This document shows positions 3,971 to 33,084 of a DNA stretch of 33,084 nucleotides, piece after piece. The DNA comes from a virus, in the IMG/VR virus record IMGVR_UViG_3300021171_000123, positions 1-33,084 of that record. The stretch is one strand, 5' to 3'. The first letter of the stretch is position 1. Every line of letters begins with the position of its first letter. Under the pieces are notes generated by a model. It searched no databases. It saw only the letters and a program-made list of their open reading frames with translations, and was not told the origin of the DNA. Made by a program: the position numbers and the translations under genes.

Positions 3971-5581
3971 TCAGTTGTTATCCACTGTCCCGCCACGCTG
4001 TTCGCCTGCAATGTCGAATATCGGTGAAAGTTCAACAATGTCAAATAACGAACCCGCCGGAGCGGTCAGTGTGTATTGAATACGAAGGCCCGGAATCGGT
4101 ACGCTAAAGATATACGTCAAATCGTCGTTGCTTCCAGTTCCTAGCGTGATGGTCTGCTGAACGTTCTGTCCCGCCTCGTTTATCAACGTCAGCGTCCAAG
4201 TGACACTACCAAGGTCCGTAAACACCAAACGAAACTTCTTATTTGTGTGTCGATGACGACGGTCTTTGAATATCAGCTTGCCTGACTTTACGGAGTATGA
4301 AACCTCGGAGCCAGCTTGACTAAAGTCAATATAACCGACGGTTCCGTCAACAAACGAAATGCCAATCTTGTCACCTTGGTCTGGGACGAACGTGTTTGTT
4401 TGAAGAGAAAAATCGCCCAAAGCGACAGGAACTTTGTTGAAAATCCAACGAGTCCAATTTTCCTCGTCGAAGTTGTAGACCCACAAAGGACATTGAGTTG
4501 GGTCGCCTACGTTCTTGACACACAAGAGATAGTATGCCATGAATGGCGACGCTCCAGGCGAGTGCGTCCTGTGGCTGCGCGTGTTCCCTAAAGGACCACT
4601 AATCTTCAAATCAGCCATAATCCTCTGACGAGCGCCAAGCCAACGCCTCTGTCCGATAGGAGCAGCGCCTATCGAGGAAAGCACCGTTTGATTAAATGTG
4701 TAGACGTTGTCCGGGCCGGCGAAGATCCCATTGTCGTAACCGCCGATATTGAGCTTCTGCAACGAGAATAACGCAGTCGGCCCAACATCGCCGCCCATGA
4801 TTGGAACAAAAGCGAAGGGAGCAGCGCCTGTTCCTGTAGAGATTATCTGCAAGATGCCGTTTGGGTGGAACCCAAAGCCGTATTGCCCAAGCTTCAACAA
4901 ACCATATCCAGGACCGAGGTCAACAAGCTCGTCGTTAATCCCGGCGCTGAAGCTCGTCCAGTCGGTTGGGTCGCCAGCCCCACTCCATTGATAGCGTTGC
5001 GGCTTCAATCCCGTCCCGATGACGTTGACGTCAACAGTCATTAAATGAACACCAATCTCCGCGATAGCAAAAGGCTCTTGAGAGTTCGCGCTCGATAGTG
5101 TGTAAACACCGGGAGCGGCTTGTGGGTCATAGAGATAGACTTGGTCGGAGTTGAATGGACCGCCGTTTGCAAAGCAAAGCTTCTGATTCAACACCGACCA
5201 TGTGAATGGAATTGACCCATTGGTCAAAGGACCAAGAGCCGGTCCCGTCAACAGCGTCCAGGCGACGCCGCTCCAATCGTAGACGTGCCCCACATTGGTG
5301 AATGCAACCTGCCGTCGTAGACCAAGGGAGTCCCAAAAAGCTGCGAATGTCGTGATGTACTCACCAAAGATAAGACCGGGAGGCGCAGGAAGCGTCGTGT
5401 AGGTCGGTCTGTTCTGAGCCGTACCGAAACGGAAGGCGAGGTTTTGACAGTCGGCGAAGCCGTAATCTTCGATAAGCGAGATGGGAAGCTCTGACTGGAT
5501 TCCACCGAAAGGTCCAGTCAGAGGACTCTCCTTCATTTCCTCCGTACCTAGCTGCTGACGGTCTGGACTGCTCGGACTCAA
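3971..5581 (-). CDS. Beta-propeller-like tail (nozzle/stabilisation) protein
   Basis: 536 aa. The start is TTG at 5581, overlapping the upstream stop (TTGA), with GAGGGAG about 9 nt before it. The ATG 15 codons later has its purine run only 2 nt away and is less likely. The protein has no signal peptide and is made of repeated beta units with aromatic turns (TNVGHVYDWSG, QKLCFANGG, QVYLYDP, NVYTFNQ, LWVYNFDEENWTRW). This suggests a beta-propeller like the tail tubular/nozzle or packaged-DNA-stabilising proteins of podoviruses (T7 gp12 or P22 gp10 type). It sits between the lysis/ATP-grasp genes and the tail fibre. Family assignment rests on fold style and position, not on a diagnostic motif. 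Confidence 0.55.
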   Translation of the reverse strand: MSPSSPDRQQLGTEEMKESPLTGPFGGIQSELPISLIEDYGFADCQNLAFRFGTAQNRPTYTTLPAPPGLIFGEYITTFAAFWDSLGLRRQVAFTNVGHVYDWSGVAWTLLTGPALGPLTNGSIPFTWSVLNQKLCFANGGPFNSDQVYLYDPQAAPGVYTLSSANSQEPFAIAEIGVHLMTVDVNVIGTGLKPQRYQWSGAGDPTDWTSFSAGINDELVDLGPGYGLLKLGQYGFGFHPNGILQIISTGTGAAPFAFVPIMGGDVGPTALFSLQKLNIGGYDNGIFAGPDNVYTFNQTVLSSIGAAPIGQRRWLGARQRIMADLKISGPLGNTRSHRTHSPGASPFMAYYLLCVKNVGDPTQCPLWVYNFDEENWTRWIFNKVPVALGDFSLQTNTFVPDQGDKIGISFVDGTVGYIDFSQAGSEVSYSVKSGKLIFKDRRHRHTNKKFRLVFTDLGSVTWTLTLINEAGQNVQQTITLGTGSNDDLTYIFSVPIPGLRIQYTLTAPAGSLFDIVELSPIFDIAGEQRGGTVDNN

Positions 5582-7167
5582 GCGTTTACTCCCTCGTTTG
5601 CGACGATCTGCACTACTCTATCATCGTAGAGCTTCAACATGCGAAAGTCCTTCTTGTTCGTCACTTCCAAAGGCTCCCCGATGTTGTCGCTGACCCAGTC
5701 GTGGATTTTGACAAGTTGCTTCATGTTTTCGTTAAACGACTCGGCCGTCCCACGAGCGGTCAAGATACGTACCTCTTTACCATCAGCAAGCCAGCGTTTC
5801 ACGCGCTGAATCATCTTGGGGATAGGCTCGCCAATATCGTTGCTCCAGTTCGAGTAAGACGCGAGCGTCCCATCAAGATCGACCCCGATCCAGCCCTCGT
5901 CGTCGGAGTCAAGAGCTTTTAGTGTTCGATAGTCCTGAAGCATCGCTTCGCAAAGGTCCGTTCTAAACTGCAAGTCTGGGGCACGTAGTCGTGAGACTAT
6001 CTCGTACGCACGAGCGAAAGCTTCGCCAATAGTGTCGCCACGACCGTTGACTGTTCCGACGATTCCAACCCCGTGCGAGCTTTGTATCTCGCCGTCCTCC
6101 AACATCACTCCGAAGGGGTAGAACCACTCCTTGTCCGCTTCGGTGAAACCTTGAATGCGCACGCCGCCTTCGTGCTTGAACTGCTCAGAGGGCCACGGTG
6201 GTAGACTCAGCCTAACGCCCCCAACAAAGCCCAGACTAAGAGTTTCGCTACTATCATCGCCACTAGCCAAATCGCTAACAAAACCACCGAAGTCAAAATC
6301 ACAAAGACCATAAAGAAGCGAAGGAAACGCGTCGTAGCCGAATCTTGGGGTGAATTCAAGGGCATAGACACCTTCTTTATTCACAACAGCGTTGACGTCG
6401 ATAGGCCCGACGTAAAGGTGTTTTCGCAACGTATCCGTTAACTTTAGTAATAGTTGCTTCACCAACGGGTCGTTGGCTGAGCAGGCCCAAACGACGTTGC
6501 CGGTGCAGCCCCCTGACGGTCCATGATCGCCGTTCAGGAACTGCTTTCGTTCGAGGGTGTGGTTAAACATTCCCTCGATCCACTCCTTACCGTTGAACCA
6601 ACCTTCGGTGGAGATGGCAACACCTTCGACAAACTCTTGAATCGTGATGTCGATATCGCCAGAGCTATGCTCCTTCTCGAACTGTTTCAAAAACGAAAGT
6701 GCGTCCTCCGCGTCGTGCGCAACATAAGAAGGAACGACGCCGCTCAGCGAGCCTTCAGGCTTAATGACGACTTTCTCACCGTCACCAACCTTCTCAACTA
6801 GCTTCTCAGCGTCGCTCCAGCTTGCTGCATGTTCTGACTTTGGGATTTTTACGCCACTACTACCAAACACCTCCTCCGCGAGCTTACGGTCCTTCTCTAG
6901 CTTGTCAGCAAAACTGCTGCCAGAGAAAGTGCGAACGCCAGACTCTCGGAACTTGTCAAGAATCTGGCCGAATCCTGTTACGTCAGCGATAACCGTTTGA
7001 CCGAAGGAATACTCGCTTGCAGGGTCGACAAGCCCCTGGCCTTGATGCTCGAAGGCGTCGTTAAATATCTTGATCTTGACTTCGTGACCCTCGGCTTTTA
7101 GCCGAAGCGCCAAGCCGACGCCATCGCCGCATTCGCTCAGTATGAGAAAGTTGCCCACTTTTTTCAC
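5578..7167 (-). CDS. ATP-grasp ligase fused to HAD-type phosphatase
   Basis: 529 aa; GTG start overlapping the endolysin stop (GTGA). Residues 1-400 resemble ATP-grasp carboxylate-amine ligases of the PurD (GARS) type: an N-terminal Rossmann-like part (SECGDGVGLALRL), nucleotide-binding strands VVIKPEGS (K136) and IQEFVEGVA (E178), and a metal-binding region with DVNAVV and LEFTPRFG (E271, R275). Residues 425-525 are a HAD phosphatase: GVDLDGTL (D430, D432), ILTAR (T470) and LYDDRVV (D515, D516). Stand-alone HAD proteins of this kind are common in phages; fusion to an ATP-grasp module is unusual. The substrate cannot be told: purine precursor, peptide or modified nucleotide are all possible. 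Position between endolysin and tail genes suggests late expression. Catalytic residues of both halves look intact. Confidence 0.75.
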   Translation of the reverse strand: MKKVGNFLILSECGDGVGLALRLKAEGHEVKIKIFNDAFEHQGQGLVDPASEYSFGQTVIADVTGFGQILDKFRESGVRTFSGSSFADKLEKDRKLAEEVFGSSGVKIPKSEHAASWSDAEKLVEKVGDGEKVVIKPEGSLSGVVPSYVAHDAEDALSFLKQFEKEHSSGDIDITIQEFVEGVAISTEGWFNGKEWIEGMFNHTLERKQFLNGDHGPSGGCTGNVVWACSANDPLVKQLLLKLTDTLRKHLYVGPIDVNAVVNKEGVYALEFTPRFGYDAFPSLLYGLCDFDFGGFVSDLASGDDSSETLSLGFVGGVRLSLPPWPSEQFKHEGGVRIQGFTEADKEWFYPFGVMLEDGEIQSSHGVGIVGTVNGRGDTIGEAFARAYEIVSRLRAPDLQFRTDLCEAMLQDYRTLKALDSDDEGWIGVDLDGTLASYSNWSNDIGEPIPKMIQRVKRWLADGKEVRILTARGTAESFNENMKQLVKIHDWVSDNIGEPLEVTNKKDFRMLKLYDDRVVQIVANEGVNA

Positions 7168-12287: not shown

Positions 12288-13241
12288 CTACGGTCCGTTT
12301 GAGCCAAAAGTTCCCTCCCACACCGTAGCCCCGACGGAGATACGCATGAAGGAAACTTGTTTGATTGAACGTGTGTCAAAGTCATCGGCGAAGTCCTCGT
12401 CAAGTTCGTGGCGCACGAAATACTTTAGTCGGTGCGCCATCTTGTCAGCAAGCACGAACCAAGCTGACTGACTCGTCAAGTAGTGGCAGACGAAGTATTG
12501 CAAGTCCTCTGCCAATACAGCGTTGATTTCGTTGTCAGCCGTATATGGCTTGTGGGGAGAGCCAAGTATTTCACGGGCTATCCACTTGAGTTCGGGCGGA
12601 ATCACAACCGTGCGAGGCTTGATTGTAATCGGCAAGCCTTGCGAGTCGGGAAGGCGTTCGAAGAAGTTGACCATTAGCTGAATGGCGGTGAAGCTGAGGT
12701 CAACATCTACGAGCGGTCTGTTCGGATAAGTCCCGGCAGAGGCAATAATGTTTCCGATGCCTGGAGCCACTGACGTTGCAGCAGGTCCACCAAGTAGAGG
12801 GTGGGATGTATTGAAGAGCGACAAGCCGTCAGTAGTTGTAACTGTCGTAAAACCAAGGTTGAACACATTGAAGGACTGTTGTTCCTTGACAAAGTGTGCG
12901 CTCCTTGCCAGTGCCTTTGGCACTTGGTTGATGACGTTGTACTGGTCGTCCTCGTACAGCTCGAACGAGCATCGCACGCCAAGACCGTAGGTCAAGTGGA
13001 GATAGCGCTTCGAGCCGCCCTGAATAGCATCCGAGTACGAAATGGCTTCGCCCTCTGGCTTCTCCACCAACGGCGGTAAGCCGGCGAACTCAACTTCGTC
13101 CTCGTAGGCCATCTTCGAGGTCTCAACGTGGAAAATGTGTGAGTACTCCTCATCGCGTTGAAGGAGGTCCACCCAATGAAGGAATTCGTCGTGAAGGCCG
13201 GGCGCCATCAACTGCGCAAACTGCCCTCTAACCATTGTCAT
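12288..13241 (-). CDS. Major capsid protein (HK97-fold, Mu gpT-like style)
   Basis: 317 aa. Order and size (portal, scaffold-like, decoration-like, then this) fit the major capsid protein. The sequence has the N-terminal helix region (LMAPGLHDEFLHWVDLL), a segment SDAIQGGSKRYLHLTYGLGV like the E-loop region of gpT-type coat proteins, the typical SLFNTSHPLLGG, and a C-terminal KYFVRHELDEDFADDFDTRS followed by final strands. The start is ATG immediately after the decoration gene stop; a second ATG two codons later is an alternative. It forms the icosahedral shell. Confidence 0.75.
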   Translation of the reverse strand: MTMVRGQFAQLMAPGLHDEFLHWVDLLQRDEEYSHIFHVETSKMAYEDEVEFAGLPPLVEKPEGEAISYSDAIQGGSKRYLHLTYGLGVRCSFELYEDDQYNVINQVPKALARSAHFVKEQQSFNVFNLGFTTVTTTDGLSLFNTSHPLLGGPAATSVAPGIGNIIASAGTYPNRPLVDVDLSFTAIQLMVNFFERLPDSQGLPITIKPRTVVIPPELKWIAREILGSPHKPYTADNEINAVLAEDLQYFVCHYLTSQSAWFVLADKMAHRLKYFVRHELDEDFADDFDTRSIKQVSFMRISVGATVWEGTFGSNGP

Positions 13242-19161: not shown

Positions 19162-20868
19162 TCAATTCACCGGACTACTATAAGGCTGATTGACTCGATG
19201 CGCGCCTCGTTGATTTGCGAGAAGCGACTGGACGTAGTGCTCGTAACGCTGCGGAGTCTTAATCAACTGAGGCATGTACGCCAAGGCGTCGAGCAAGTCA
19301 ACGAACCGTCCCTTTGGAAACGTCGTGTATTCTCCCAAGAATTCTTGATGTTTCCTCTGAGAGAAGAAGTGCCCACCCTCAAAGATAGGAGCCAAAACAT
19401 TACGAATGCGCCATTCCTTCTTACGAGTCAGCTCGCCGTCTGGACCCTCGACTTCGCCTTTGAGTTCGAGGATAGTCAATGACTGACCCCTTGTTCTCGA
19501 CATAGCTTGAATGTGATGTCCGATATAGCGTTGAGCCGCAATGGTTTCAAGCCCCATCTTCCTCAAACCCCACGTCCCTGCAAGCTCGAAGATTTTGCCA
19601 TAAAACTCGTCGTAGCCGCTGGCTTTCAGGAAGTAATCGAGTAAGTAGTAATCACCGTCGGCCGAAAGTCCTACGACCGGGATGGCATGTCGACATCGCC
19701 CCATCCCCTGATTCCCAGAGTGATTAGGGTCAGCAGTCATTCCCAGTCGCAAATGCGCGACTGGGAAGTCCTTGCGGACTATTCCATCTTTGGCTTCGTG
19801 ACGGATCATCCGCTTGAAGCCGTTCTTCTCGCTAGGTTCTTCGATAGTGAAGTGGTTAAGCCACTGCTCTTTGAAGTCGGCATTCTCAGGAGCGGCAGGG
19901 TTGTTTAGGAATTGGCAGGAGAAGTGGTAGGAGCCAAGACGACGACGCCAACGTTCAAGTTTTTCAAAGCCGAATTCTTCTGGAAATATCGGCGTGTCGG
20001 AAGGATGCTCTGGACAGCAACCGCCCAAAGCAGAGTGAGTCAACACCGTAAACTCGGGTTCATGCTCTCGAACGTGAGAGTTAAGGTCCGTATAGCCCCA
20101 ACGATTTCCAACAACGAACTCGTCATTCTCAGAGTCGGCGGCTTTCTTCGAACCTCGGTCAGGCTCTTGCTCTTCAAAAGCACCTACAAGCAGACGGTGA
20201 TAATCGACCGTCTTTTCCATCACGCTTATCGATTCGATAGCCTTACGACCGACAAGGTCGTCTTGCAGAATAAGACCGTCATAGTGCCTTGATTGAAGTG
20301 CTCCACCGACTCCTAAAAAGTCAAACGTCCCTTCACCATGAGAAGCCGCGCCAGGAGACCGTTTGTGACACAGCGAATAATTCGACCACGTACAGGAGGA
20401 ATCGGGAAGAATCTCAGGAAAGAGAACCCTGAATATCGCGTTGGAACCGTAATGCCCACTGATACGAGTCCCCAACTTCGCAGCGTTGGTGATATTCTCG
20501 CAAACAAGAAGACTTCTTGAGTCGCGCTTGTGAACACGCTTCATGAACCGAATGAACTCGTCACCGTAACCTAACTGTCTAAACCTATCCTCGTCACGAC
20601 TATCAAACGGAAGAGCACGCCACATAGGGAAGCCTTCCGAGCAAATCGTCGATTTGAAGTGGTCACGAGGGAGTTCGTAGACATCTTTTAAATGCTCTCG
20701 TTCCAAACTGATACACCACGGCTTGTGGAGTGTATCAGTAAGACGTCTACGACGCAACGTCGTTTTGATAAAGTAATAGAGCGATCCAAGAGAGTTTACT
20801 CTCATCTTAGCTAAACGGTCGGCGTGAGAGTCCGACTTTGGAATGTCAACTGGAGTAAATCGTTGCAT
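19162..20868 (-). CDS. terL: Terminase large subunit
   Basis: 568 aa, full-length. The N-terminal ATPase has a Walker-A-like LPRDHFKST (about residues 66-74, the deviant phage form) and Walker B GLILQDD (D203, D204). The C-terminal RNase-H-like nuclease has GMTADPNHSG (D380), a middle acidic position near E441 (GLET) and VDLLDALAY (D524, D527). It packages DNA into the prohead and cuts it. The ATG follows the homing endonuclease stop immediately (TAAATG). All expected acidic residues are present. Confidence 0.9.
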   Translation of the reverse strand: MQRFTPVDIPKSDSHADRLAKMRVNSLGSLYYFIKTTLRRRRLTDTLHKPWCISLEREHLKDVYELPRDHFKSTICSEGFPMWRALPFDSRDEDRFRQLGYGDEFIRFMKRVHKRDSRSLLVCENITNAAKLGTRISGHYGSNAIFRVLFPEILPDSSCTWSNYSLCHKRSPGAASHGEGTFDFLGVGGALQSRHYDGLILQDDLVGRKAIESISVMEKTVDYHRLLVGAFEEQEPDRGSKKAADSENDEFVVGNRWGYTDLNSHVREHEPEFTVLTHSALGGCCPEHPSDTPIFPEEFGFEKLERWRRRLGSYHFSCQFLNNPAAPENADFKEQWLNHFTIEEPSEKNGFKRMIRHEAKDGIVRKDFPVAHLRLGMTADPNHSGNQGMGRCRHAIPVVGLSADGDYYLLDYFLKASGYDEFYGKIFELAGTWGLRKMGLETIAAQRYIGHHIQAMSRTRGQSLTILELKGEVEGPDGELTRKKEWRIRNVLAPIFEGGHFFSQRKHQEFLGEYTTFPKGRFVDLLDALAYMPQLIKTPQRYEHYVQSLLANQRGAHRVNQPYSSPVN

Positions 20869-26873: not shown

Positions 26874-27368
26874 ATGAGAGCAGACACAGCAACGAAGGTA
26901 GCCTACAGAGAAAGCCCCGACGGTGACTGGCGTATTACGTCGGAAACGGCTTTCAACGACAAGGTCACCAAGGCGACAGCCGAAAAGACCGCCCTTCCTG
27001 AACAACGGTCGAGTGGCACTTTCGGCTACAAATACGCCGAAACGGTCGACGAAGCTGTCGAGCTGAGCGGCGGACGTGGCGTTGGTGAGTACGAAGATGT
27101 CGAAGTGTTCCTCGCCGTGTTCAACTACGGCGCCGGACTGCGACAGCACGGCGCGGCCAAAGACATACTCCTAAGCGACAACTTCGAAGCTTGGGAGGGT
27201 GTCAAGGACGTCAGCTTCGCTATCGCGGAGAAGGTGGAGCGCTCCAAGATGTCGGTCGAAGAGAAGACGTTCTCGCTGCTCAAGAAAGCGGGATACAACA
27301 TTACTCCCGACCAACTCAGAGCCGCGCTTGCGTCGATTCAACAGCCGGAGCAGGCCGCTTCCGCCTAA
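26874..27368 (+). CDS. Hypothetical protein, own transcription unit
   Basis: 164 aa, AAAGGAG upstream; its own promoter upstream and a terminator downstream suggest a separately controlled, possibly abundant product. Contains GTFGYKYAETVDEAVELSGG and a helical C-terminus (TFSLLKKAGYNITPDQLRAA). No recognised domain. Confidence 0.55.
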   Translation: MRADTATKVAYRESPDGDWRITSETAFNDKVTKATAEKTALPEQRSSGTFGYKYAETVDEAVELSGGRGVGEYEDVEVFLAVFNYGAGLRQHGAAKDILLSDNFEAWEGVKDVSFAIAEKVERSKMSVEEKTFSLLKKAGYNITPDQLRAALASIQQPEQAASA

Positions 27369-27390
27369 CACGAGTTACCCCGACTATCGG

Positions 27391-27415
27391 ACTCTTAGTC
27401 TTATGAGCTGAGAGT
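27391..27415 (+). other. Hairpin downstream of the 164-aa gene
   Basis: ACTCTTAG with CTGAGAGT, 9-nt loop; one U-G pair exists only in plus-strand RNA. No T run follows, so it is not a classical terminator. Confidence 0.35.
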
Positions 27416-27510
27416 TTAGCAGGCGAATACGTAAACGCGCGTGCCGAAGGTAGTTGGGGTTCCATATTAACGCCGACGGGTGTCATAGCCACTCGTTATC
27501 TCCTTGCAAA

Positions 27511-27547
27511 GCGAGCGTATATCGGCGTTTACGCTCGCCTTTTTATT
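27511..27547 (+). terminator. Intrinsic terminator with a loop that can form a pseudoknot
   Basis: GCGAGCGTA / TACGCTCGC gives a 9-bp perfect stem followed by CTTTTTATT. The loop contains TCGGCGTT (27522-27529), exactly complementary to AACGCCGA (27470-27477) just upstream, allowing a pseudoknot or competing fold. Confidence 0.8.
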
Positions 27548-27622
27548 GAGACGCTCTCGAATCCCAACGGTCTGTACGACGGTCCAGCGATGCAGGACAA
27601 TGCTCGCTCGAAGAGCGTCTCA
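27547..27622 (+). promoter_or_regulatory. Long stem leader before the 74-aa gene
   Basis: TGAGACGCTCT (27547-27557) pairs perfectly with AGAGCGTCTCA (27612-27622), extended by a bulged CGA/TCG. Inside is a small GTCC/GGAC hairpin. It starts at the end of the terminator T run and ends just before AAGGAG and the ATG at 27639. Confidence 0.45.
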
Positions 27623-27638
27623 CTAAGGAGACAGCCCC

Positions 27639-27863
27639 ATGCCAAGAGGTGTTTACAATCGCAAGTCAGCACCAAGAAAAGAACGTGTCACCAACACAGG
27701 CCGACGTGGTCTGCGTGAACCAGAACCATCGACCAGACTCGAACGCATCAAGACCGCTCTAAGCTCGCTCGACTTCGGTTTTACGGTGTTCTTCACCGAC
27801 GAGCGTGGAGAGAGCATCAAGTATTACTCCGGCGCGGTAGTCCAAGAGGAAGCTCGGAGCTAA
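27639..27863 (+). CDS. Small basic protein (MPRGVYNRK type)
   Basis: 74 aa; AAGGAG before the ATG. A basic N-terminal tail (MPRGVYNRKSAPRKERV, then TGRRGLRE), like small phage DNA-binding proteins, followed by a mixed domain (FGFTVFFTDERGESIKYYSG). Function unknown. Confidence 0.5.
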   Translation: MPRGVYNRKSAPRKERVTNTGRRGLREPEPSTRLERIKTALSSLDFGFTVFFTDERGESIKYYSGAVVQEEARS

Positions 27864-27865
27864 AC

Positions 27866-28342
27866 GTGGCCATCAAGTGTCGTATCTGGTGGAACGAACA
27901 AGCTCAAGCCTACGCTGTCGTGAGCGGCTACTCGAAAGATGTAGTAGCCGCTCTCAAGACAGTAATACCCTCTGGCGACAGAGACTACGACCCAACGACC
28001 AAAACTTGGTTCGTTAAAGAGTCCTACGGCGAAGCCATTCGTAAGATAGCCGAGAGTGCCTTCGGTATCGGCTCCGTCTCATTCACAAGCCGCGCTGTGT
28101 CACAGCAAGCCTCACAGCGTACGTACACGTCGTCTAACACAGCGTCGATACAGCCGTCACAAGGCACTACGGAAGACGCAGTCGTCGCCTTTATGGGACT
28201 CGTACCGTACGACGCTGCGAAGCGTTCGTACCTGCTCGCTGCTCAAGCGTTGCATCCTGACAAGCCTGACGGCGATGGTGTCAAAATGGCACGACTCAAT
28301 GAGCTTTGGAAGAGAGTCGAGAAGGAGTTCTATAAGCGATGA
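27866..28342 (+). CDS. HARP-like / J-domain protein
   Basis: 158 aa, GTG start with GGAG seven bases upstream. Residues 1-65 (YDPTTKTWFVKESYGEAIRK) resemble the small HARP-like module found next to helicases. After a Ser/Gln/Thr linker, residues 112-158 look like part of a DnaJ J-domain: helix II with AAQALHPDK (HPD at 130-132) and helix III (LNELWKRVEKEF). It would engage a DnaK-type chaperone, possibly to remodel a nucleoprotein complex. J-domain spacing is shorter than usual, so call it tentative. Stop overlaps the next ATG. Confidence 0.6.
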   Translation: MAIKCRIWWNEQAQAYAVVSGYSKDVVAALKTVIPSGDRDYDPTTKTWFVKESYGEAIRKIAESAFGIGSVSFTSRAVSQQASQRTYTSSNTASIQPSQGTTEDAVVAFMGLVPYDAAKRSYLLAAQALHPDKPDGDGVKMARLNELWKRVEKEFYKR

Positions 28343-28614
28343 TTATAGAGGTTAAAATATCCTCCCCCGAAAAGTGGTGTCCGGGAGCGAAGCACGACCT
28401 CTTGAATCGTCCCGAGATGCTCTCTTTCGTCGGCAAGGGTATTAGAATTGACACAAACTCAATGCGTCTTAACGACACAGATGGCGACGGAAAGTCATTC
28501 CGTGAGTGGAAAGTCATCGACGAAGATTTACACATTCTTGAGGAACTCGCAAACGTCGAGTTCTATGACCAAATCAATCGAATTTGCGAACACCTCATCG
28601 AGATAGGAGACTAA
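28339..28614 (+). CDS. Hypothetical protein
   Basis: 91 aa, ATGA overlap with the J-domain gene. Acidic, mixed fold; contains MIIEVKISSPEKWCPGAKHD and GDGKSFREWKVIDEDLHIL. No recognised domain. It links the J-domain gene to the VWA gene in one operon. Confidence 0.55.
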   Translation: MIIEVKISSPEKWCPGAKHDLLNRPEMLSFVGKGIRIDTNSMRLNDTDGDGKSFREWKVIDEDLHILEELANVEFYDQINRICEHLIEIGD

Positions 28615-28618
28615 AGCT

Positions 28619-29374
28619 ATGAACGACAAACTCGTCAAGCCCGACGAACAGTCGGGTATCTCACTGTCGAAAGGCAAACTCACTTCGCGTGGTTCGCCCT
28701 TTCAACAGCGCGTTAACGAAGCGAAGCGTAGCGAAGTTGACCCATCAACGATGCCGAACCGCATCTGCCTCATGCTTGACAAGTCATCTTCGATGTCAAC
28801 GACAGAAACAAAGGGAGCACGTCGTATCGACCTACTCAAAGACGCGCTCTGCAACTTCGTTGGTCGATGTGACTTCAAAAACACAGCTATCGCTATCGAA
28901 ACCTTCCCCGAAGGCTTTGAGCTACCTCTGTCAAGCAACCTGTCGGTGTTGCAGACGGCGGGCTTCGGTATCGAAGCGTCAGGCAACACACCGATGCGAG
29001 CGTGCGTCGAACGAAGTCTATCGAAGATACCAATGACACGAGGGGTTATCGTCAGCGATGGGGAGGCGACGGATTGGTACTCACGTCCCTGGCATGACGA
29101 TGATGAAACGAGCGAGACTGCTGTTAAAGCAGACGAGCTTCTCAAGAAGTATAAAGAAGCAGGCATTCCAATCGACTGCGTCCACATCGCAAGCGATTCG
29201 GGCGGTGAGGCTCTCTTACGACGTATTGCCGAAGTGACAGGCGGTATCTACCTAAAGTTCACCGACGTCAGTGCGTTCGCAAACTCGTTTGGCTATCTGA
29301 CGCCCGGCTTTCGAGCCACGCTCACCGACGGTAGGGTGTCGGCAAGGGACCTTGGAGCAAGAGAGGTATTGTGA
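28619..29374 (+). CDS. VWA (von Willebrand A) domain protein
   Basis: 251 aa. A complete metal-ion-dependent adhesion site is visible: LDKSSSMS (D54, S56, S58), GNTPM (T124) and IVSDGEATD (D147). The domain covers residues about 45-235 with the expected alternation of strands and helices; there is no signal peptide or membrane helix, so it acts in the cytoplasm, like TerY- or MoxR-linked VWA proteins that mediate complex assembly. AGGAG lies nine bases before the ATG. Its stop overlaps the next GTG (GTGA), in an operon that also has the DNA translocase. Confidence 0.8.
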   Translation: MNDKLVKPDEQSGISLSKGKLTSRGSPFQQRVNEAKRSEVDPSTMPNRICLMLDKSSSMSTTETKGARRIDLLKDALCNFVGRCDFKNTAIAIETFPEGFELPLSSNLSVLQTAGFGIEASGNTPMRACVERSLSKIPMTRGVIVSDGEATDWYSRPWHDDDETSETAVKADELLKKYKEAGIPIDCVHIASDSGGEALLRRIAEVTGGIYLKFTDVSAFANSFGYLTPGFRATLTDGRVSARDLGAREVL

Positions 29375-30108
29375 CTCTACCAAAGAAGGGACAAGGACCG
29401 AAGATACCGAACTGGGCTTTCTCTATCATGGAGAGACAGCTCGCTATTCCTCGGAGCTTCGTTCAACACGCCGGCTTGTATGTCCCTCGCGACGTTGTGC
29501 CTCGTTGGACAGCTCAATACGACACGGAGCAAGACGAGCCAGAACCTCCCAAAGAGGTTCCATACGAAGTAAACATGGTCGAAGCTCTCGTCGGATGGAA
29601 GGCTTGGAACTTCGACCTAGCCGAGCAGACACTAAAAACACGCGGTTACTCTTGGCCGAAGGACGCGCCGTTTGAGGCAAAGTGTGTCGAATATCGTATG
29701 GGCAAAGAAGTTGCCCACTGTAAACTCGTTCCCACCGAGGACCACTGTTGCGGTATCTATTCGAGCACTCGCGAAGATGCCAAGGAATTCCTCGACGAGG
29801 ACGGTATTCTCGGAATGGTCTATGGTTGGGGACGTTACATTCGTGGTGACGTAGGCTGGCGTGCTCAGTTTGCGTATCCAAAGTTCTTCTTGATAAAGAA
29901 CGAACAGGCGAATCTAATAGAATGGCTTCGACTCTACCACGTTCCTATCTACATCGAACAACCAACACTGATTTATAATCCAGAGGAGGACGGTTATGAA
30001 CATCGGGGAACAGAAGAGGACTGGAATAGCGGAGCCACTGAAGAGTCCGCTTCCGCAGAAGAAGGAAGTACCAGTTACGAAGAGGGAACCGGTTCCGGTG
30101 AGGAGTAA
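29371..30108 (+). CDS. Conserved unknown with acidic tail
   Basis: 245 aa from GTG 29371. The core has VEALVGWKAWNF and EDHCCGIYSS, a pattern (W-K-A-W ... C-G-I-Y) known from uncharacterised phage and actinobacterial proteins. Cysteines (AKCVEY, AHCKL, HCCGIY) could bind metal. The last 45 residues are almost all E, S, G and T, an acidic disordered tail. Directly precedes the translocase (TAA then GTG). Function unknown. Confidence 0.55.
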   Translation: MTLPKKGQGPKIPNWAFSIMERQLAIPRSFVQHAGLYVPRDVVPRWTAQYDTEQDEPEPPKEVPYEVNMVEALVGWKAWNFDLAEQTLKTRGYSWPKDAPFEAKCVEYRMGKEVAHCKLVPTEDHCCGIYSSTREDAKEFLDEDGILGMVYGWGRYIRGDVGWRAQFAYPKFFLIKNEQANLIEWLRLYHVPIYIEQPTLIYNPEEDGYEHRGTEEDWNSGATEESASAEEGSTSYEEGTGSGEE

Positions 30109-31257
30109 GTGACAACCACGACCCAAGCCCGAACTCCCGAGCAAGACCTAGTCGTAATCTCGCTCATTCATAAAATCGCGAGTTTAGGACTGCAAGCCGA
30201 CTTTTGCGACCCCATTAGCGTCGGCCCGATTGTCTCTGTCTACCGCTTCGCCCCGAAGGGGTCTACCAAAGTCTCTCACTTAGAGTCGCTAAGTCAAGAC
30301 TTTGCTGTCGTTTTGGGAGCCGAAGATGTGATGGTAAAGAGGATGCCGGGCGAGTCCTCGGTAGGAGTCTTTGTACCAAACAAAGAACGCCAGTGGGTAA
30401 AATGGTTCAACCACTGTACACTCGACCCTACGAAGTATCACTTACCACTCGTACTCGGAATCGACCACCTCGGTCGACCCGTGGTCGAAGACCTTGCGAT
30501 GTTGCCTCACCTGCTCGTTGCAGGCTCGACGATGGGTGGCAAGTCAACGTTGTTGAAAGCTCTTATAACAACGCTCATAATCAACTACAGTCCAAGCGAC
30601 GTACAGCTCGTTCTTTGCGACATCAAAGAAGGAGTTGAGTTTACGAAGTTCCAAGGCGTTCCGCACTTGCGAAGCAACATAGCGACGTCAATAGACCTAG
30701 CTCACATTCGCTTCGACGAACTAATCGACGAAATGACACGGAGGTTAAAACTTCTTGCTCAAACCTCAACACACAACATTGCCGAGTACAACGCCGTCCG
30801 GCAGGGCGCGCCGACTCGCCTCCCTTACATTGCTGTCGTTGTGGACGAGATCGCAGATATGCTTTCTGATCGTAGAAAAATCGAAGAGGAAGAACCCTCA
30901 CCAGATGGAAAACCTCGATATGCTCTTGCTGGCAAGATTGCCTCGGGAAAGCTATCAAAGCTCGCTGCGAAGGCTAGGGCTTCGGGGATTCATATTATCG
31001 TCGCGACTCAACGGCCAAGCGCAAGACTGTTGGAGGGAGACATTAAGTCGAACTTCCCTGCGCGACTTGCTTTCCGGCTGCCGAGTCAAACAGATAGTCG
31101 TGTCGTATTGGATACGGGAGGCGCGGAGCACCTCCTCGCAAGGGGCGACATGTTATTTATCAACCCCAACAAGCCAGGTCTTTCGCGCATTCACGCTCCA
31201 CTTGCTTCGGCGCAGGATATCCAAGCGGCCCTCGAATTCGCAGCGCAAAGGAGGTAG
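30109..31257 (+). CDS. Soluble FtsK/SpoIIIE-family DNA translocase
   Basis: 382 aa; GTG start with GAGGAG upstream. Residues 35-100 resemble the FtsK alpha-beta module (VGPIVSVYRFAPKGSTKV). The motor has Walker A AGSTMGGKST (138-147), Walker B IAVVVDEIAD (241-250), the conserved SGIHIIVATQRPSA (292-305) and LPSQTDSRVVLD (324-335). There is no transmembrane part and no gamma DNA-reading domain, so it is a minimal hexameric translocase. Since the phage has its own terminase, it may move replicated or plasmid-like DNA, clear proteins, or act in conjugation-like or defence roles. The arginine-finger region appears intact. Confidence 0.85.
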   Translation: MTTTTQARTPEQDLVVISLIHKIASLGLQADFCDPISVGPIVSVYRFAPKGSTKVSHLESLSQDFAVVLGAEDVMVKRMPGESSVGVFVPNKERQWVKWFNHCTLDPTKYHLPLVLGIDHLGRPVVEDLAMLPHLLVAGSTMGGKSTLLKALITTLIINYSPSDVQLVLCDIKEGVEFTKFQGVPHLRSNIATSIDLAHIRFDELIDEMTRRLKLLAQTSTHNIAEYNAVRQGAPTRLPYIAVVVDEIADMLSDRRKIEEEEPSPDGKPRYALAGKIASGKLSKLAAKARASGIHIIVATQRPSARLLEGDIKSNFPARLAFRLPSQTDSRVVLDTGGAEHLLARGDMLFINPNKPGLSRIHAPLASAQDIQAALEFAAQRR

Positions 31258-31260
31258 TAA

Positions 31261-31482
31261 ATGAGAGTAAAAGCTGAAGTTACAGGAATCAATCTCTACG
31301 GGAAAGGAGAAGGCGAGCCAAAACGTCGTGAAGTTTCTATCGAATGGGCAGAGCCAAAAACAGAAAACGACCCCTATCCAATTCATTACAGAATTCAATT
31401 CAACGACACCGACGGTGACCTCCAGCTTGGCGACACAGTTCTTGTGTCAATCGAGCGGATGGCTCGCGTTGCGAGTATTTGA
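31261..31482 (+). CDS. Small hypothetical protein
   Basis: 73 aa, AAAGGAGG upstream, directly after the translocase. Beta-rich (IHYRIQFNDTDGDLQLGDTV). Could be a translocase accessory protein; unrecognised. Followed by a 7-bp inverted repeat (31492-31498 with 31514-31520) and a T-containing stretch that may end the operon weakly. Confidence 0.55.
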   Translation: MRVKAEVTGINLYGKGEGEPKRREVSIEWAEPKTENDPYPIHYRIQFNDTDGDLQLGDTVLVSIERMARVASI

Positions 31483-31778: not shown

Positions 31779-32438
31779 ATGTCAGAACCAAACGATGGTG
31801 GACTCCCTTCGTCAGAGGACCTCGACGCCGTAGCCGAGGAACAAGCGATAGCTGACGCAACCGTTACCAAAATTAACGATAGCGTCGCTTCGTCAATCGA
31901 CTCCGCGAAGCTCTGCTCCTACTGTCACATCAACACCGCCCAACGAATCTGCTCCCACTGTGGTCAGGAGTTCTGCTCGCAGCACTACTGTCCCGTCCAT
32001 GAAATGTCCACGCAAGTTGAGCCTCTGACCGAAGAGGACGGTACTGTCCACCAAGGACGGCGCATCCGCTTGATAGGCGAAGGCTGGCCGAACGACCTTC
32101 GCTTAGTCAAAGACTACACCGACGAAGAGCTTGAGTTTCAAATCTCAGGCTTGCAGCGTTTGCTCCAAGATGCAATCAAAACCGCTGACTACGCCCGTAT
32201 CTCTATCGCAGCTAGGGAGTACGAACGCGACTACCGCAAACACAGTCGCTACGTCGCCGCGATGAAGCGTAGAGAGAAGCTCACTCAGGGAGCCGTTAGG
32301 CTGAACTCGAAAAAGCATCGAATGGATGCGTCGGCGAAGCCACTAACAATGGCTGAAACGCTTGCAAAGCAAATGAATTTGACTGTCGAACAAGCGACAG
32401 CTTTGCTCGGTGTGCTTGGAGCACAGAAAAAAGCGTGA
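31779..32438 (+). CDS. B-box/AN1-like zinc-finger protein
   Basis: 219 aa; GAGG before the ATG. Residues 46-74 give C46-x2-C49, C58-x2-C61, C66, H69, C71 and H74, a cross-braced zinc finger like B-box or AN1 types (CSYCHINTAQRICSHCGQEF), more familiar from eukaryotes. A charged helical middle follows (DEELEFQISGLQRLLQDAI) and a UBA-like helical end (LAKQMNLTVEQATALLGVLG). Role unknown; could be protein-protein or nucleic acid binding. Confidence 0.55.
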   Translation: MSEPNDGGLPSSEDLDAVAEEQAIADATVTKINDSVASSIDSAKLCSYCHINTAQRICSHCGQEFCSQHYCPVHEMSTQVEPLTEEDGTVHQGRRIRLIGEGWPNDLRLVKDYTDEELEFQISGLQRLLQDAIKTADYARISIAAREYERDYRKHSRYVAAMKRREKLTQGAVRLNSKKHRMDASAKPLTMAETLAKQMNLTVEQATALLGVLGAQKKA

Positions 32439-32519: not shown

Positions 32520-32888
32520 ATGACCACACCAAAGCCTGAGGGAGCGCCGCGATGCCCGCACTGTAAGGGCACGAGAGAGAACCCGATGCCACTGAGCAAT
32601 GCCGGGTCACGCTGCTTTGAGCCATTCCACGACCCTGCGCAGCCAGCGACCACAGCAGGGAAGGCGAGCCGCGAGCAATCCGCTATGAATCGAGCGCACG
32701 CAATCGTCCGCATGTGGCTGGAGCTTGATGATGGGACGGAACAGGAACAGCGCGACCGGCTCGTTGAGGACATCGCAGACGCTATCATAGAAGCCCGTGC
32801 CCCCGCAGAGCCTTCTGACAGCGCGGCGCAACTCGAACAAGCCTATGACCAAGGTCAAGCCGATGCAGCGGAAGGAGGCAAGAGGTGA
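32520..32888 (+). CDS. Small zinc-knuckle/helical protein
   Basis: 122 aa, GGAAGGAG before the ATG. CPHCKGTRE at the N-terminus is a single zinc half-site with a later lone C (SRCFEPFHD). The remainder is helical and acidic. Its stop overlaps the nuclease start (GTGA). Unrecognised. Confidence 0.5.
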   Translation: MTTPKPEGAPRCPHCKGTRENPMPLSNAGSRCFEPFHDPAQPATTAGKASREQSAMNRAHAIVRMWLELDDGTEQEQRDRLVEDIADAIIEARAPAEPSDSAAQLEQAYDQGQADAAEGGKR

Positions 32889-33084
32889 CAACAATCACAG
32901 CCCCGACAGAGCGAAAGCCATTCTCGTTCTACAAAATCTTGCCGAACGGCAAATACGAATTCTTCGTCGACGCTTCGTTGCTCAAGAGCTTCTCGCATTG
33001 CGAGCGTTATTTCTACCTCAAACACGTAAAGAACCTTCGACAGAAGGGCTACGGCGTTACGATGCCCTTCCCGATGGCTATCGG
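32885..33084 (+). CDS. PD-(D/E)XK nuclease N-terminus (cut by window edge)
   Basis: 66 codons from GTG 32885 to the window end. The sequence FVDASLLKSFSHCERYFYLK and the later PFPMAIG match the start of Cas4/RecB-like PD-(D/E)XK nucleases (S-x-L-x-x-[FY]-x-x-C-x-R-x-[FY]-x-x-x-[YH]), where a cysteine in this segment often ligates an iron-sulfur cluster. The catalytic D, E and K lie outside the window, so activity cannot be judged. Confidence 0.65.
   Translation, partial: MTTITAPTERKPFSFYKILPNGKYEFFVDASLLKSFSHCERYFYLKHVKNLRQKGYGVTMPFPMAI

Follow-up and report, generated by a model that had tools for sequence, protein, structure and literature searches.

The viral record IMGVR_UViG_3300021171_000123 of IMG/VR, analysed here over all its 33,084 bases (the window), contains an early operon whose conserved core is a pair of genes. 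One of them encodes a protein combining a HARP-like N-terminal domain with a C-terminal J-domain (HARP-J, or J) and the other a VWA protein, and the two are almost inseparable in related viruses. A gene of an FtsK-like double-stranded DNA (dsDNA) translocase is the usual third part, which is separable and replaceable. The J-VWA(-FtsK) stretch lies in a conserved early replication/recombination cassette of the phage, and it is tentatively proposed that HARP-J and VWA recruit the host chaperone DnaK to branched phage DNA and that FtsK is an auxiliary translocase.

A first-pass annotation, made from the letters of the window, had united the HARP-J gene and the four genes following it in one operon, possibly encoding an undescribed DNA-processing or anti-host complex. 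Its gene positions and its layout of overlapping or touching genes were borne out, and the operon in fact begins at 27639 and extends to 31482. The five genes concerned are as follows.

27866..28342, plus strand: HARP-J protein, 158 amino acids (aa); HARP/DRD-like region at about residues 1-75, disordered linker 85-98, C-terminal J-domain with HPD at 130-132
28339..28614, plus strand: s91, accessory protein of 91 aa, with a 4-nucleotide (nt) overlap with J and no Pfam or PHROG family
28619..29374, plus strand: VWA protein, 251 aa, starting 4 nt after s91, with a complete metal-ion-dependent adhesion site (MIDAS)
29371..30108, plus strand: acid245, 245 aa, with an acidic Ser/Glu-rich tail, a 4-nt overlap with VWA and no Pfam or PHROG family
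30109..31257, plus strand: FtsK-like dsDNA translocase motor, 382 aa, abutting acid245

Conservation of the gene pair

To collect relatives, viral contigs were scanned three times, with VWA, J and FtsK as seeds, and once more widely with a 13-member VWA profile; together these scans gave 35 contigs with VWA, or about 28 after near-identical ones were merged. J is directly upstream of VWA in all 35, a figure that is conditional on VWA, as the relatives were fetched by sequence; almost all of them are metagenomic. FtsK comes next after VWA in 30 of the 35 contigs, three others end inside or just after VWA, and two, belonging to one lineage (L083/L084), have no FtsK in the whole contig. The order J-VWA-FtsK is kept in these 30 contigs down to about 26-35% identity, and the median pairwise identities of J, VWA and FtsK are 32%, 35% and 43%, respectively. 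When the search was seeded on J, VWA was found in 17/17 untruncated loci, and in the set seeded on FtsK both J and VWA were present in 11/13.

The small genes of the locus behave differently. In and around the same intervals s91 was found in 4/35 contigs, acid245 and u124 in 2/35 each, d73 and u154 in 1/35 each; since J adjoins VWA in 35/35 contigs against 1-4/35 for these local genes, the pairing is more than chance. The s91 protein is 66% identical in L008, homologues of acid245 are confined to the near-identical L002/L010 and to L004/L016 (53%), and other contigs hold unrelated small genes between or around J, VWA and FtsK. Judged by this distribution, s91 and acid245 are lineage-specific cargo. 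The co-occurrence anticipated in the first-pass annotation was thus confirmed for J, VWA and FtsK, which travel together, and failed for s91 and acid245, which come and go independently; with these two sporadic and FtsK separable, the four-gene unit was rejected.

The separability of FtsK follows from three kinds of phages. J and VWA occur without it in L083/L084, where they stand between ParB/methylase and the uracil-DNA glycosylase (UDG)-PolA genes, and in the complete circular phage MW202554, where they overlap at 37671-38959, with the exonuclease and the other cassette genes following them; FtsK was found in 17/18 records, MW202554 being the exception. FtsK is present in L050 and L051, which have neither J nor VWA. 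Finally, L004 and L006, whose J and VWA proteins are 95% and 93% identical, differ in FtsK, with identities of 84/57/82% in its first, middle and last parts, a pattern that points to an exchange of the motor core.

MW202554 is the one annotated relative and was reached via its terminase. No match in annotated phages was obtained by tblastn for J or VWA of the window, nor for the divergent J of L084 and VWA of L079, and a search with the VWA of MW202554 gave no further relatives. Two scans of bacterial genome contigs revealed no relative, and plasmids searched with VWA yielded none.

Domain content of the proteins

In the HARP-J protein the elements of a J-domain, helix II, HPD and helix III, are present, the helices occupying residues 115-129 and 138-154 of the structural model. 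The DnaJ family of Pfam was matched in 9/15 members of the J family, and the family profile matches J-domains in the PDB, those of polyomavirus T antigens best (E=2.6e-8). HPD is kept in 33/35 relatives, as well as in the window and in MW202554, while L083/L084 have HSD. The J protein of this FtsK-less lineage (L084:7766-8920) also carries a long N-terminal extension, and its function may differ or be lost.

The N-terminus matches the Pfam family HARP at E=2e-4, below the cut-off, and HARP was matched in 3/15 family members. The model consists of two domains joined by a disordered linker (predicted local distance difference test, pLDDT, 81; predicted template modelling score, pTM, 0.47). Its best Foldseek match is the HARP domain of SMARCAL1 (4o66; prob 0.99, E=0.04), XPB is next, and in BFVD the top viral matches include phage HepA-related proteins. 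The HARP domain of SMARCAL1 is known to act on branched DNA, and the PDB title of 4o66 names HARP as the substrate-recognition domain of SMARCAL1. These matches together with HPD agree with the HARP-like N-terminus and J-domain of the first-pass annotation, as do the results below with its MIDAS-bearing VWA protein. Single-sequence phmmer searches of J or VWA against the PDB gave no informative match.

The VWA protein has a complete DxSxS/T/D site (D54-K-S56-S-S58, T124 and D147), which is invariant across the alignment of 13 sequences. The model (pLDDT 83; N-terminus, about 1-23, disordered) agrees with a Rossmann-like VWA fold, and its Foldseek neighbours are TFIIH p44/Ssl1 and p34, Rpn10, BatB and ArnB; the VWA profile matches ArnB (8s05) at 6e-10. 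By its fold, VWA falls within the intracellular class whose members serve as motor regulators and scaffolds, such as TFIIH p44 and Rpn10. Two peculiarities were seen in single relatives. A second, longer VWA protein (L014:4370-5848, contig of L005; 492 aa, CoxE-like, with DKSGS) is encoded between FtsK and the B-box gene in that phage only, and an in-frame TAG at L021:3152-3162 (G010) interrupts, possibly as a sequencing variant, the VWA gene, which is intact in a near-identical contig of L013.

The FtsK protein contains Pfam FtsK_SpoIIIE (E=1e-37) and FtsK_alpha (E=3e-12), both above the cut-off, and its profile matches the motor of Pseudomonas aeruginosa FtsK (2iuu) at E=1e-95. Walker A (GSTMGGKS) and Walker B (VVVDE) are kept in relatives. 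It is a soluble motor of alpha and RecA-like beta domains that ends after the beta domain; within its 382 aa no match to a gamma domain and no membrane or transmembrane part was found. The predicted lack of membrane and gamma domains was therefore correct, with the addition that the alpha domain is present. Against PADLOC only the generic FtsK motor domain matches (SspH, mad8, HerA). The gene is mosaic: in L004:7998-9158 and L006:7908-9146 two core types, CDIKEGVEF and SDTKGVEF, are swapped between phages with near-identical J and VWA. In Mycobacterium phage Optimus (L085:3037-6236) an FtsK-like gene lies near a gene of a Ku-like DNA-end-binding protein and an excision factor, which is another DNA-repair setting.

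The replication/recombination cassette and flanking features

J, VWA and FtsK are placed between the conserved protein up164 (32/35 loci) and a B-box-like protein (28/35). Farther downstream follow a PD-(D/E)XK exonuclease (26/35), a Sak4-like recombinase (23), a protein like single-stranded DNA-binding protein (SSB; 18), ParB/methylase (11) and UDG-PolA (8), these counts dropping with distance partly because the loci are cut. In better-covered phages Pfam and PHROG searches identified exonuclease, Sak4, ParB and methylase, UDG and PolA, a primase (DUF3987) and a GroES-like protein. The linked exonuclease, recombinase, SSB, polymerase and primase are seen in relatives, as the window ends inside the exonuclease gene; a homologue of that gene, L060:6023-7030, has matches to PDDEXK_1 (2e-15) and to an exonuclease PHROG (2e-26). 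The GroES-like (Cpn10) protein, encoded at L060:15740-16093 (G010) after the primase gene, gives that phage a second chaperone cofactor.

Three kinds of proteins were sought in the records, most of which are linear fragments, so that absence is not proof: phage Hsp70 was found in 0/18 (control 12/14), MoxR AAA+ in 0/18 (control 13/14 genomes) and tyrosine integrase/recombinase in 0/19 (control 14/14), serine recombinases lying outside this search.

The operon of the window (27639-31482) is tight and consists of a 74-aa gene, J, s91, VWA, acid245, FtsK and a 73-aa gene. It belongs to a plus-strand early block extending to the window end; the structural genes are mainly on the minus strand, among them the terminase large subunit (19162-20868) and the major head protein (12288-13241). 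In the structural region the minus-strand protein 5578-7167 resembles PHROGs of phosphoheptose isomerase and of polynucleotide kinase at its C-terminus. The features flanking the five genes are the following.

26874..27368, plus strand: up164, conserved protein of 164 aa, last gene of the preceding unit
27511..27544, plus strand: terminator-like hairpin, stem GCGAGCGTA/TACGCTCGC followed by TTTTT, start boundary of the J-VWA-FtsK operon
27639..27863, plus strand: small basic open reading frame (ORF) of 74 aa with AAGGAG ahead, opening the operon and ending 2 nt before J
31261..31482, plus strand: ORF of 73 aa, 3 nt after FtsK, lineage-specific (1/35 loci)
31779..32438, plus strand: B-box-like zinc-finger protein, 219 aa, conserved downstream neighbour
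32885..33082, plus strand: 5' part of the PD-(D/E)XK exonuclease gene (Cas4/RecB-like), truncated where the window stops

Neither up164 nor the 74-aa ORF matched any Pfam or PHROG family. In most relatives up164 and J are set apart by a terminator-like hairpin: a hairpin with a T-run occurs in the same gap in about 23/32 of them, and because its position is kept while the sequences differ, it marks a real operon boundary. The whole intergenic region 27369-27640, from up164 to the operon and including this hairpin, has a folding energy of -108.6 kcal/mol against -81.4 kcal/mol for shuffled sequences (z = -5.3) and no Rfam match. The B-box-like protein gave weak zinc-finger matches only; such a zinc finger is an unusual domain for a phage.

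Interpretation and alternatives

According to the reading that we tentatively favour, the HARP/DRD-like domain would bind to DNA that is branched or forms a fork, and the J-domain, a type of domain that recruits Hsp70, would draw DnaK to it; the host chaperone is taken as the partner because no phage Hsp70 was found. The VWA protein, via its MIDAS, may act as a scaffold or client receptor coupling the J protein to DNA-processing enzymes. DnaK would thereby remodel nucleoprotein complexes at replication or recombination intermediates, and in lineages keeping FtsK the motor could then track dsDNA, stripping proteins or driving branch movement. Precedents exist for both halves of this scheme: Rki of phage RB43 is a functional phage J-protein acting on DnaK, and T antigens employ a J-domain in viral DNA replication (PMC3486835).

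Several points weigh against it. The interaction, DNA-binding and chaperone roles are all predicted; the role of VWA is a guess by analogy with its fold class. The Foldseek E value of HARP-J is weak, the Pfam match of its N-terminus falls short of the cut-off, the pTM reflects two flexible domains, and one lineage carries HSD instead of HPD. Moreover, synteny spans the whole cassette, so that adjacency may reflect vertical descent, and evolutionary distances of J, VWA and FtsK correlate at 0.83 mutually versus 0.75-0.88 with other cassette genes (most pairs).

A more ambitious form of the proposal, in which an obligate HARP-J/VWA complex puts host Hsp70 on replication forks or on recombination joints and passes these to the FtsK-type motor, is in our opinion unlikely. 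Such a viral machine, hitherto undescribed, would parallel in its logic T-antigen/Hsp70 replication or TFIIH, with a DNA-recognition domain, a VWA scaffold and a DNA motor.

The alternative that survives best, which we consider somewhat unlikely, is plain synteny: J, VWA and FtsK would be early proteins, each independent of the others, in a single old phage lineage whose replication region has kept its order of genes, and would form no working unit. The colinearity extends well beyond these three genes, to up164, B-box, exonuclease, Sak4, SSB-like and ParB, and the mirror-tree correlations, no higher among the three than across the cassette, do not single them out. However, the small genes between them turn over freely while J and VWA stay, and the two are still paired in the very divergent MW202554 and, at another cassette position, in the FtsK-less L083/L084.

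That the three proteins form one stable complex, a new DNA-processing machine in which the FtsK motor has VWA as its adaptor and J as its assembly chaperone, seems doubtful. The kept gene order of the 30 contigs, even at the lowest identities, and the assignment of VWA to the class of motor regulators and scaffolds speak for it, but J and VWA persist without FtsK, FtsK persists without them, and its core was exchanged while they were kept. Furthermore, the FtsK protein is of RecA/HerA type and not a MoxR-type AAA+. The earlier analogy, by which VWA serves an AAA+ machine, is accordingly weak, and a MoxR-VWA system was rejected, no MoxR AAA+ having been detected in the 18 records.

Host takeover or counter-defence is improbable. 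Here J would titrate or redirect host DnaK, as Rki does with sigma32, and VWA and FtsK would act on host DNA or defence complexes. The Rki precedent itself, the early genome region, the listing of related FtsK proteins under moron/host takeover in PHROGs and the resemblance of the FtsK domain to the motor domain of the defence protein SspH are in its favour. Against it stand the conservation as core genes embedded in a replication cassette rather than in a variable accessory region, the HARP domain, which points to DNA forks, and the fact that J, VWA, s91 and acid245 match no PADLOC family. As J and VWA are without such a match, a known defence system was also rejected. Of the two roles offered by the first-pass annotation, DNA processing fits the cassette, and no positive sign of the anti-host one was seen.

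It is very improbable that FtsK, a family member related to P. aeruginosa FtsK, serves dimer or concatemer resolution with a Xer-type recombinase, or packaging, with J and VWA as bystanders: the missing gamma domain and the absence of a tyrosine recombinase from the 19 records disfavour the Xer role, and the separate terminase large subunit disfavours that of a packaging motor.

Comparison with known systems and significance

Rki of RB43 is likewise a short phage J-protein with HPD acting via host DnaK, as expected here; it is likened to HARP-J by description alone and, unlike it, is described as acting on DnaK and sigma32 outside any VWA/FtsK operon (PMC3486835). Polyomavirus T antigens, the best PDB profile matches, also tie a J-domain to a DNA-binding function. 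In them J is fused to an origin-binding domain and a helicase, whereas the J-domain of the phage is C-terminal and fused to the HARP-like domain, and the FtsK motor is a separate protein. The fold of the N-terminus is shared with SMARCAL1 HARP, the XPB DRD and phage HepA-related proteins, but its fusion partner is a superfamily 2 motor in SMARCAL1 and XPB and a J-domain in the phage. TFIIH p44/Ssl1 and p34, Rpn10 and ArnB are the nearest folds of the VWA model, without detectable orthology, and the phage protein consists of one domain, its chain having neither a zinc-finger nor a beta-sandwich partner.

The motor family of the phage FtsK also includes the FtsK/SpoIIIE-like proteins encoded by Bacillus, Listeria and Mycobacterium phages (PHROG 1358/3551), mostly with 28-37% identity. 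In the two phages checked, Optimus and Goe8, no VWA or J product is annotated near FtsK, and the Goe8 protein is much longer. Chromosomal FtsK differs in having the gamma domain and membrane anchor.

The J-VWA-FtsK combination is not covered by any family in Pfam, PHROGs, NCBIfam or PADLOC, and in the literature searched neither a paper joining phage, VWA domain and J-domain nor a description of the module was found, in agreement with the earlier suggestion of an undescribed complex. The individual components are familiar; a HARP-J fusion linked to VWA within a replication cassette seems to be undescribed, and the way in which J, VWA and FtsK work together has apparently not been studied before. 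By analogy, the system would belong with virus-encoded J-proteins that cooperate with the DNA replication/recombination apparatus of the virus.

Viral J-proteins steering host Hsp70 are known from few viruses, and the fusion to a domain of the DNA-junction type and the linkage to VWA are absent from the literature searched. If the proposal is true, these phages would offer a small, expressible prokaryotic system for studying Hsp70 remodelling of replication or recombination complexes and the way in which VWA scaffolds link chaperones to DNA motors. The J-VWA signature marks a broad, little-known and nearly uncultivated phage lineage.

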